From Psilocybe azurescens (lineage: Eukaryota > Basidiomycota > Agaricomycetes > Agaricales > Agrocybaceae), in contig JAJIRX010000867.1 in the NCBI GenBank assembly GCA_023853785.1, forward strand, positions 1 to 64,000: 64,000 nucleotides of DNA, given 5' to 3'. Shown here piece after piece: positions 52,934-56,650 of this stretch. The position numbers were made by a program, and so were the translations under genes. Below the pieces are notes generated by a model. It was not told the DNA's origin. It saw nothing but the letters and a program-made list of their open reading frames with translations, and did no database searches. Every line of letters starts with the position of its first letter. The first letter of the stretch is position 1.

Positions 52934-55900
52934 CTAACATCCTTTAGCAAATCCCTTCGCTCCACGATTTTCAACCCCAGACAATTTGACCTTCTTCGTC
53001 TGCGCAACATTAAGCTTCTCAAAGCTCTCGAGGTCGACCAACCCATTGATCGTCGTCTGGATAGGAAGTAGCGTCTCCAACATACCGCCATAATCATGCA
53101 CAGCGACCTGGTCGGGGTTTCCCGTGTCACATCCAAATACGCGTTGATGACTGCCTGCATCTCGTCCTGCACCTGCTTGAGCTCTGAGATTCCTTGTTTG
53201 AACTCATAATACCCGAAACACGGCGCTGCGCGCTGGCCGTTCTGGCCGATGGGCTGAGAGATTAGGAACTTGGCGAGAGGTGCGAGGACGCCCATCATGA
53301 TGCCGTACATGTTTTTGAGAACGAGATTCTGTCTGCTACTATCCTTTTCGACATGCCACAGGGTTTCGATGGTACGGAGGAGGAAACAATAAACGGCGTC
53401 AAATGCCAATGATACCTGCAAGGAAGGATATCGTCAGTATGCAGTTCTGTAGGAAGTCCAGAGAGGTGATGATAACCTGATATATTCTGCGATCGAACTT
53501 GAAGTAATCCGATGTGACTGGATTTTCTATGACGGGGTAAACATCCCAGGACGCGTCTCCGTTTTTCAGATCCATGAAGACGTCATAGTGGTCTTTCTCC
53601 ATCTTATCTGGATCGTCGTATGGGCCTGGCGAACCTTCGCCTTGTATAATGATAGTATCAAGAGCTTCAAGCGCGGTGTCAAGATCTTTGACGACAATGG
53701 AGCCACCAGCATCGCGTTCCTTGGCTTGGTATCCGAGGCCAGGTGCAAATTAGTATACAGCAGTTTCGGGATGGAACAACGGATCGTTCTGGCCGTCCAA
53801 GTATTTCAATCCTGGTAAAATTGGATTGGATTGGGTCAGGACTTGGATATCAACAGAACTTAGATGACGACTAAATACCTAGCTTGATGGCGTCGTAAAA
53901 TTGACCGAGAGTTTGATACTCGTCTGATTCTGGTTTTGCCCCGTTTGCTCTCGGGTCTCCACCTGAAATTTGTAATGAGCGGTCCGGGTCAGGAAAACCG
54001 CAGAAGCCACTATTTGACATGAATACGTACATCGATAAATGTCTGCAGATTAGCCTTGTTGGCCTTTCGAAGCTGGAGCCATAACTTTGGTACGCGACCG
54101 GGGATCAGCATCGGGTAGGAAGGTATATATCTTGGATCGTAAAGTTTGGGATTACCACCAACAGCGAGGAGGACATTTCCAGCGAGACTAAGATGCAGCA
54201 TTTCTTCAGCGACAACGCCTAGATCAACAACCATGCCATTAGAACCATTATTACAGAGTGGAAACATATCTCTTACCTCGAATGGCACCAATGACAGGAT
54301 CCCAATAGCGTGGATCATTGGTGTACTGTGCCGGGATCTTCACGCTATACATTCCAAACAGGTACAGAGGAATCGTGGCCAGCTCGATGGCCATCGCAGT
54401 TTGAAGATGGGTACGGAGGCTCTCAAGAGTAGTAATGGGATTGTTCCCCGAATCGGGTTTGGGGAGGATAAGAGGCCCACCGACAGTACCGTTCTTGGCT
54501 GGGGTGTGCTGAGCAGGTAAAGTATCTTTCACCCGGCGATGGACTTCGCTGCGTTGAGTCTCCACGAATATAGGCTCAGGTCCAAAGGAGGGGCGTTGGA
54601 CGATGAAGCCCAGTTTGTGCCAGTTTTTAGCCATGTCCGTGTTCGCAAATAGCGGCTGATCCGAGTATTCGTCTGTGATAAGACATGATTGCGGTTAGCA
54701 TGCTTCGATAGACTCGAAAGGATGTGTATCACCGGTGTAGTTTTGATGCAGTCCACGCTCCCAAGGTACTCTGTCGTTCAACTTCTTCGCGATGTTAGCA
54801 GGGGCAACTGACTGCGAAACGATCTTGTAGACTTCCTCAGTTACGATCGTGTCCGGACGGGCGGAAGGCCACCTATTGTGCGGGGATTAATGATGCTTCG
54901 GGTATGCCGATGGAAGTCTTCCCAGTAAGATCGGCATATGTAGAAATCCACTCTGCCACGGTAAAGTGAGGAAACGTGTGAGATCTCCTGCCTGAACGTT
55001 CAAGTTGACTGTGAAGGGTGTGTCGAGCTGATAGGTCTCATCGAGCTCTGCATTCCACGACATTTCAATACCGGGGTAGAGAGGGGCGCCGATCGTCGCT
55101 TCTAATGCAGCTTTGGTGAGCGCTGCGGGCTGCTCTGTGATGGGAATATCATCGAATTTCTTGTATTGCTTCACAGGGGTCTTGGTGAATTGGCCTTTGC
55201 TCCACTTCACGAGACGGTCGTATTGAAGTTCAGTGACCGATGCGAAGGTGGTTGGATCACCAGCCGTGGTTCGTCCTCGATGTATCACTTAGTCCCATGA
55301 CGGTAGTTAAATGTGGTAAAGGGAACACCTACCGCCGTCGCCCGAAAGCCAGGGCATGAAATACGGATACGCTTGTCCAGTACGTGCTTGGTCGTATTTC
55401 GCGTTGGTCTCGGGTAGTCGCATACGCATGATAACACCTTTGCGGATTGCTTCACTGTCTTCTGTCTCGTCAGATAGTGATTCTTGCCATCCTTCGTCGA
55501 AGAAATTCCCGTGAGAATTCGGACCTATGATAACTTCAGCACAAACAAGCGAGAAAATTATGCATTATACCACGCACCGTGTCCGCCATTCGCCTGACCG
55601 TTGACCCAAGAAAGAAGGGGAGGGCGTTGAAGCAGCGGCCATATGTGTTGGTACCAGTTCACCTCTCCAACATCGTACGCTTCACCTTGCTCGGCGCGTT
55701 TCTTCCTCTCATAGACATCCTCCATCAAATCATACAGCGATGTTGGTGCATAGATACCATTAGCGAATTTGGGAGTCGTCCCAATAACGCGAGCTTTTCC
55801 CTGCACTTCGACCGACTTTCCTGACCCTTGAGCGGTGATGGTCGCAGTGATCCACCCGTCAGAAGTGTCGTCGATCCAGTCAGACGAATCGAAATCAGTC

Positions 55901-56650
55901 ATGAGGTAGGGATACGGATCGTCCTCCTTAGCGATGGACATGGACTGTCCGCGACCAGCGAGAACAACGAGCCGGCCTTGCTCGTCAGTCCTGGCCTCTC
56001 CGAGATAGATATCGGTGGGCTGGTCCTTGGAGCCGTAAAATTTCCCTGATAGAGGGACGGATTTCGCGCTGCATCCAGTGATTTTCTGAACACCACTATC
56101 GACTATCAGCTTAGTTCGTTGGTCTGGAGGCAGCTATAGCATCTACCCATCAGCAATGAGACATCAGACAAGAATTCTAGATTTACATCTGGCTGTACAG
56201 TCGGATTACGGAGCGTCGTGTTTCCTGGCTGAAATGCGCCTTCTTGGGTCCTTCGTGCGACGGGGCATTAGATGGTGAGAAGACCAATCGGATCCACGTA
56301 CCCATAAATGTGTACCAGGACGCTTTCTTGTTCACGAGTTGGACATTCCACGCGATATCCCATCCGCTCTTTTTGTTTATCTCAAGGACTTTACCATCCT
56401 TTCCGATGGCGTACACTCTAAAACGTGCGGCCTAATGAAAGAATTGAGTGTCGCCCAGGGCAGTGATGAAGGATATGACCTGTCGCTTGACGGCGCCGTT
56501 GACATCCTTGAATCCGTTCAGAGGCTCTTCAAAGTATCCAGGAACTTCGGGTCCATAGAACCATCCGTCATCGAGAGTCGAGTTTCCAACGCGTGCAAAT
56601 CCAATAGGAGGGTAAATGCGCACACTATCCCAAGCAGGAGGAATCGACAT
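52934..56650 (-). CDS. LodA-like oxidase fused to ferritin-like domain
   Basis: Minus strand. First exons 56480-56650, 56316-56431, 56187-56250, 55578-56133, 55333-55524 and from 55275 on. LodA features: RIYPPIGFARVGNS (residues ~11-24), GPEVPGYF, the RQ|AARFRVYA junction, LGEARTDEQGRLVVLAGRG, GDGG|RTTAGDPTT, LTRFLTLPWQ, WPSARPDTIV and NWHKLGFIV. The LodA family are amino-acid oxidases with a Cys-Trp (CTQ) cofactor that release H2O2. The same frame runs on, without stop or new start, into a ferritin-like domain of the VioB/RebD type (IELATIPLYLFGMYS, then VVAEEMLHLSLAGNVLLAVGG, a di-metal E...ExxH pattern, and EYQTLGQFYDAIKLG). Breaks: the frame stops between LPWQ and WPSARPD (~54890-54955), an in-frame TAA at 53750-53752, and a one-base shift at ~53130. 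LodB partner is divergent at 57552. Confidence 0.8.

Follow-up and report, generated by a model that had tools for sequence, protein, structure and literature searches.

A LodA-type quinone oxidase fused to a PF12902 ferritin-like domain in Psilocybe azurescens and other fungi

Results

A gene joining LodA and PF12902 in one chain

We analyzed a stretch of 64,000 nucleotides from Psilocybe azurescens (assembly GCA_023853785.1, contig JAJIRX010000867.1, positions 1 to 64,000 of the forward strand), referred to here as the window. On its minus strand, from about position 56650 to 52934, lie 12 exons that encode the domains LodA_N, LodA_C and PF12902; these were placed with the guidance of another contig of the 70.4 Mb assembly, C689, whose own copy of the gene is 96.5% identical over 4.6 kb. 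LodA_N matched the open frames holding exons 1, 2 and 4, LodA_C matched the open frame 54887-55288 on the minus strand, and PF12902 matched three frames holding exons 8, 9 and 11, each match being above the Pfam cut-off. The junction between LodA and PF12902 lies inside a single open exon (exon 8, Table 1), in which NWHKLGFIV, the end of LodA, and ELATIPLYLFGMYS, the first PF12902 helix, occur with no stop or intron between them. A preliminary description of this DNA, made from the letters alone, had the LodA frame run straight into the ferritin-like domain. This holds for these two motifs but not for WPSARPDTIV and VVAEEMLHL, which belong to exons 7 and 9, respectively, with one intron between either of these and exon 8. 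The description had also proposed that one polypeptide joins a LodA oxidase of the cysteine tryptophylquinone (CTQ) type to PF12902, and had suggested a check with profiles of the three domains; the matches above bear this out, and the same architecture was found in other basidiomycetes, in Jimgerdemannia and in Rhizophagus. Since a Psilocybe cubensis protein, P0001, matches the spliced C689 copy with the same three domains (83% identity over 100% of the query), chance is excluded as the origin of the fusion, which is real.

LodA_N and LodA_C also exceeded the Pfam cut-off in P0001, P0010, P0021 and P0032. The two residues of the CTQ pair, C486 and W554, were invariant in 12/12 aligned relatives and align with GoxA; in the window copy the codon of this cysteine is out of frame. 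The fungal fusion thus shares with the LodA/GoxA family (PF17990, PF18417) both LodA domains and the CTQ Cys, Trp and Asp, and differs from it in that its chain continues at the C-terminus into PF12902. P0001 scored 303.9 bits against the NCBIfam model for GoxA (cut-off 750) and 131.2 bits against that for LodA (cut-off 600); being below both equivalog cut-offs, it is a member of the family to which no substrate can be assigned from the equivalogs, and no assigned substrate was found for any fungal CTQ oxidase. PF12902 scored 150.3 bits in P0001 (cut-off 22.3), and E633, E674, H677, E818 and H834, the putative ligands of a di-metal site, were present in 58/58 aligned domains.

Table 1. Exons of the fusion gene and its LodB-like neighbor in the window
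Feature	Position	Strand	Content
Exon 1	56480..56650	-	Start codon, LodA_N
Exon 2	56302..56431	-	LodA_N
Exon 3	56187..56254	-	Placed by comparison with C689; acceptor AC here, AG in C689 copy
Exon 4	55578..56133	-	End of LodA_N, middle of LodA
Exon 5	55333..55524	-	Middle of LodA; without a Pfam match on its own
Exon 6	54923..55275	-	LodA_C, CTQ cysteine region; in window copy, frameshift of one base at 54949 and donor GT lost
Exon 7	54733..54872	-	WPSARPDTIV
Exon 8 (junction exon)	54277..54672	-	CTQ tryptophan (NWHKLGF), linker, first PF12902 helix (ELATIPLYL)
Exon 9	54027..54218	-	PF12902, EEMLH motif
Exon 10	53879..53962	-	Placed by comparison with C689, within the PF12902 stretch
Exon 11	53477..53811	-	PF12902, QGEG and ExxH motifs; premature stop at codon 781 in window copy
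Exon 12	52934..53415	-	C-terminal extension; both copies change frame near 53116; P0001-like frame ends with stop at 52934
Divergent LodB-like flavoprotein gene	57552..58841	+	At least 3 exons; reading frame apparently broken near 57980 in both copies and near 58501 in the window copy alone

The divergent gene next to the fusion is LodB-like in that its pieces matched an open reading frame (ORF) in 67/79 bacterial lodA loci, within the stretch fetched around each lodA, although none of three pieces scanned with Pfam reached the cut-off of any family. LodB is a published maturation factor (PMC4417212), and the fungal LodA proteins of that 2015 survey, where they form group V (Campillo-Brocal 2015), likewise have a lodB-like gene in opposite orientation. 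Further along, an open frame at 59086-59922 on the minus strand encodes 278 aa and matches the pyridoxamine 5'-phosphate oxidase domain PF12900 (E 5.4e-29).

The window copy and its counterpart on C689

Comparison with the C689 copy revealed four lesions in the window copy: a change of the intron-2 acceptor from AG to AC at about 56255, the frameshift in exon 6 directly before the CTQ cysteine codon, a change of the donor after exon 6 from GT to GG at about 54922, and the premature stop in exon 11, at codon 781 of the C689 model. None of the four is present in the C689 copy. Both copies share the frame change in exon 12, the final ~60 residues matching the end of P0001 in another frame as judged by eye. 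The LodB-like gene is broken once in the window copy alone and apparently once in both, the shared break being judged without a close LodB relative. Given the loss of two splice sites, the frameshift next to the cysteine codon, the premature stop and a LodB-like frame break, all of them absent from C689, and given further apparent frame breaks common to both copies, we think it highly likely that the window copy is a pseudogene that makes no enzyme. It should be weighed against this that the lesions may instead be assembly errors, and that the two copies differ by 47 synonymous and 13 other single-base steps, giving a ratio of nonsynonymous to synonymous changes (pN/pS) of 0.08, from which it follows that the gene was under constraint until recently. 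The window copy looks like a decayed allele, or a recent duplicate, of the fusion gene.

C689 also matches the window at 44.0-45.0 kb with 91% identity and in matching orientation, although this query contains repeats and gave 50 matches in all. Given this match and the identity of the gene copies, the two contigs would appear to be either homologous haplotypes or the product of a recent segmental duplication. The window at 45460-47000 holds repeated DNA with many matches across the assembly, perhaps derived from a transposon.

Fused relatives and split gene models

A search for relatives scored 7989 candidates and gave 828 matches. Among the best 120 of these, ten proteins carried LodA_N, LodA_C and PF12902 (from Psilocybe cubensis, Sphaerobolus, Russula, Volvariella, Mycena, Jimgerdemannia and Rhizophagus clarus, together with three JGI proteins), and P0007 and P0012 carried LodA_C and PF12902. 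A further search added a second, shorter Jimgerdemannia protein and a eukprot protein of 1027 aa, P0121, whose name gives it as a Trinity transcript with a complete ORF. Homologues are thus not always encoded as separate genes, the contrary case that the preliminary description had raised: fusions in the same order are listed both within and beyond the basidiomycetes. The fused proteins already stand in public databases under domain-derived or 'hypothetical' names.

Some databases hold two models where we read one gene, as in Cyathus striatus, where P0009 (LodA) and P0135 (ferritin-like) have longest contigs both of 546046 bases, which would agree with an annotation artefact in which two adjacent genes were merged on reading. 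The join, however, sits within one open exon. Moreover, P0130, P0135 and P0136 begin at a methionine matching M550 of P0001, inside LodA and shortly upstream of the CTQ tryptophan, and in P0009 and P0011 the similarity stops at the start of the intron preceding that tryptophan, so that it is the split models that look like artefacts of annotation, i.e. halves of the fusion. In addition to the transcript P0121, the ORFs of P0002, P0004 and P0021 (1045-1057 aa) fill contigs of 3226-3438 bases, which are too short for a gene with 11 introns and are therefore probably cDNA. We consider a merging of two genes to be extremely improbable. Separate fungal ferritin-like proteins with their own N-terminus exist too, e.g. 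P0142, P0148 and P0218; the last of these and the Serendipita LodA P0048 have longest contigs both of 161809 bases, consistent with their being neighbors.

Iron-domain partners at bacterial lodA loci

We examined 79 bacterial lodA loci drawn from the best 80 of 221 confirmed, some of which are near-duplicates (e.g. L050 and L052) or are cut by contig ends. Using our own profile, a PF12902-type ORF was found fused to lodA or within 1.2 kb of it in 6/79 loci, and Pfam confirmed PF12902 in all six. It lay beside lodA in five (abutting in L073, L080 and L085, at a distance of ~0.9 kb in L084 and of ~1.2 kb in L082) and was fused in one, the Planctomycetota locus L062. For the background, 34 of the 35 genomes queried from among those of the 79 loci (~262 Mb, all six positives included) yielded 18 PF12902 matches, 12 of them not at lodA, which corresponds to ~0.06 expected in the 1.20 Mb of lodA-locus DNA. 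A PF14518-type domain was fused to LodA in 41/79 loci (L012-L090), as detected with a profile of our own made from ten listed fusions; Pfam confirmed PF14518 in 6/7 fusions checked, the exception, L039, ending at a contig end. Because PF12902 is paired with bacterial lodA above expectation and PF14518 fusions occur as well, the pairing of LodA with an iron domain very probably arose more than once.

The bacterial LodA-PF14518 proteins (e.g. P0037, P0041, L018 and L013) resemble the fungal fusion in that a single chain carries LodA and, after it, an iron-oxidase domain, but their domain belongs to another family than PF12902. In the proteins scanned here PF14518 sits C-terminal to LodA, whereas the 2015 survey puts it in the N-terminal region (PMC4417212). 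The LodA fusions named in the text and part of Table 3 of that survey involve PF14518, PF00199 and vWA, with PF12902 not among them. The L062 protein (4560-9563, plus strand, 1668 aa) carries PF12902, a glucose/sorbosone dehydrogenase domain and LodA, in that order; while it has PF12902 and LodA in one chain like the fungal fusion, it differs in the reversed order, in the intervening dehydrogenase domain and in a PF12902 domain that falls on another branch, on the side of VioB.

Relationship of the ferritin-like domain to VioB

As a VioB reference we used a Massilia frigida locus in which VioA, VioB and VioC exceed the NCBIfam cut-offs. The genes vioA, vioB and vioC lie there side by side (L101:868-6476), and the same species has a LodA gene (L065). 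Against the VioB model TIGR04492 (cut-off 1250), on which a Massilia VioB scores 1856, P0010 reached 16.5 bits and P0001 and P0032 were unlisted at E <= 0.1. VioB exceeded the cut-off in 7/116 genomes of the same family as Massilia frigida, and our VioB-type set of five rows includes the longer relatives L104 and L105, whose 953 and 760 bits are below it. From about residue 600 onward VioB is homologous to the fungal PF12902 domain (hhalign probability 99.8 over 294 columns) and has the same core putative ligands. Its first 590 residues showed no likeness to LodA, which occupies this position in the fungal fusion (hhalign probability 1.0%, from a shallow VioB alignment of 9 sequences). VioB differs further in standing on a separate branch and in working with a separate flavin oxidase, VioA, encoded beside it in L101. 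RebD and StaD would count, alongside VioB, among the known systems nearest to the fungal fusion.

In a tree of the ferritin-like domain, a branch with 99% support set the five VioB-type rows, five bacterial lodA-adjacent rows and P0129 apart from the remaining 47 rows, among them every fused one, and the 15 rows of the Agaricomycete-type fused group formed a clade at support 98. A grouping of this Agaricomycete-type group with the VioB-type rows was rejected (p-AU 0.0017, quick trees). For VioB-type rows with all fused and split rows p-AU was 1.06e-6, a value confounded by the fact that these fused and split rows do not hold as a clade even by themselves (0.003), which makes the Agaricomycete-type test the cleaner one. 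Together with the TIGR04492 scores and the N-terminal half of VioB, the tree argues against the label 'VioB/RebD-type' which the preliminary description had given to the fungal domain; the latter belongs to the general PF12902 family.

VioB-type rows and the five bacterial lodA-adjacent rows were not rejected as one group (p-AU 0.40), and the bacterial lodA-adjacent ferritin-like proteins scored up to 48 bits against the VioB model. On these grounds, if any LodA partner resembles VioB it would be the bacterial one and not the fungal one. The bacterial ferritin-like genes at lodA (L073, L080, L082, L084 and L062) form one branch on VioB's side and are better candidates than the fungal fusion for VioB-like chemistry that uses a quinone oxidase. 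P0129, a protein of 1090 aa, combines PF12902 with a 4Fe-4S domain, CDGSH iron domains and a bacterial-type globin. CC_0557 of Caulobacter vibrioides (PDB 3hl1), also among the nearest known systems, is a 317-residue chain without LodA. In a comparison with manganese catalases, Foldseek matched 2v8t only at E 1.7, and the bacterial lodA-adjacent relative L084 scored 15.3 bits against PF05067 (cut-off 27).

Discussion

Quinone amine oxidases release their carbonyl product after hydrolysis of a Schiff base, the nitrogen being kept on the cofactor, and yield ammonia and H2O2; a free imino acid is handed over by flavin oxidases such as VioA and not by quinone oxidases. Because the products of the former are a carbonyl, ammonia and H2O2, a di-metal domain tethered to such an oxidase would most simply act on H2O2 or the carbonyl. 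We therefore favor, at roughly even chances, a two-center oxidoreductase in which a CTQ oxidase is joined to a ferritin-like domain acting on its released products. The N-terminal half would be a CTQ oxidase of the LodA type, with the LodB-like flavoprotein of the neighboring gene as its maturation factor, and may oxidize a primary amine or amino acid to a carbonyl product, ammonia and H2O2. The C-terminal half, with its complete Glu/His set for a putative di-metal site, would work in place, either destroying H2O2 in the manner of a peroxidase or catalase or using H2O2 or O2 to oxidize the carbonyl. The gene architecture, the conserved cofactor and putative ligand residues, the LodB-like neighbor and the repeated coupling of LodA with iron domains are the basis in hand. 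Parallels are found in bacterial LodA fused to a catalase-type domain (PMC4417212) and in RebD, described as both a catalase and a chromopyrrolic acid (CPA) synthase (PMC10076799).

The preliminary description had instead put the logic of VioA and VioB into one chain, with the LodA half making an imine and the PF12902 half coupling two of them into a dimer. The homology of the C-terminal domain of VioB over 294 columns and the core putative ligands common to 5/5 VioB-type rows would suit this proposal, but it conflicts with the rejected groupings, the scores far below the VioB cut-off, a VioB N-terminal half without LodA likeness, and the residues M-L in 5/5 VioB-type rows where 12/12 fused rows have I-P. 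As quinone oxidases give carbonyls rather than free imines, and the label 'VioB-type' is not supported for the domain, we find this coupling quite improbable. It is less improbable, though still unlikely, that the ferritin-like domain helps to build the enzyme, by supplying iron or an oxidizing equivalent for CTQ formation or by serving as a structural tether, and takes no catalytic part. That it is found paired with lodA repeatedly, among fungi as among bacteria, would be expected of a maturation factor no less than of a catalyst, and both fused and separate fungal forms exist. However, the locus already has a LodB-like gene, and LodB is the maturation factor described in the literature (PMC4417212). 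Since 73/79 bacterial lodA loci have no PF12902-type ORF in the stretch searched, some of them cut by contig ends, the domain seems unneeded for CTQ in general.

In a LodA tree of 62 rows, made by a quick method, 30 fungal, eukprot and JGI rows were separated from 32 bacterial rows with support 96. The fused forms were rejected as a single clade in this tree (p-AU 0.010) as in the ferritin tree (p-AU 0.003), and the fused Rhizophagus, P0021, Jimgerdemannia and P0121 rows belonged in the LodA tree neither to the fused group of Agaricomycetes nor to the group of stand-alone fungal proteins. The simplest reading is that fusion came first and fission later, with repeated fusion as a plausible alternative. 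A bolder extension, which we regard as unlikely, is that eukaryotic LodA was ancestrally a chimera of a protein-derived quinone and a di-metal center in a single chain, a self-fed peroxygenase in which H2O2 and carbonyl from the quinone half would serve as oxidant and substrate and yield fungal metabolites of a class not yet described. On this view, the fungal LodA proteins that stand alone would derive from later fissions, and bacteria would have reached the design separately with PF14518 and another branch of PF12902.

The preliminary description knew of no enzyme of this design. We found no description of a LodA-PF12902 fusion in the open-access literature, to which extent the statement stands, but the 2015 survey had already pointed out the neighborhood of lodA, lodB and ferritin-like genes for five genes of fungi (PMC4417212). 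The name 'iminophenyl-pyruvate dimer synthase' on P0001 is a domain label and calls for caution with database names, and at least five public gene models (P0130, P0135, P0136, P0009 and P0011) divide the protein immediately ahead of the tryptophan that forms its own cofactor. The conserved link to a di-metal domain and the parallel bacterial fusions suggest that the product or the peroxide of the oxidase probably feeds a second reaction, and the fusion itself suggests a concrete two-step assay.
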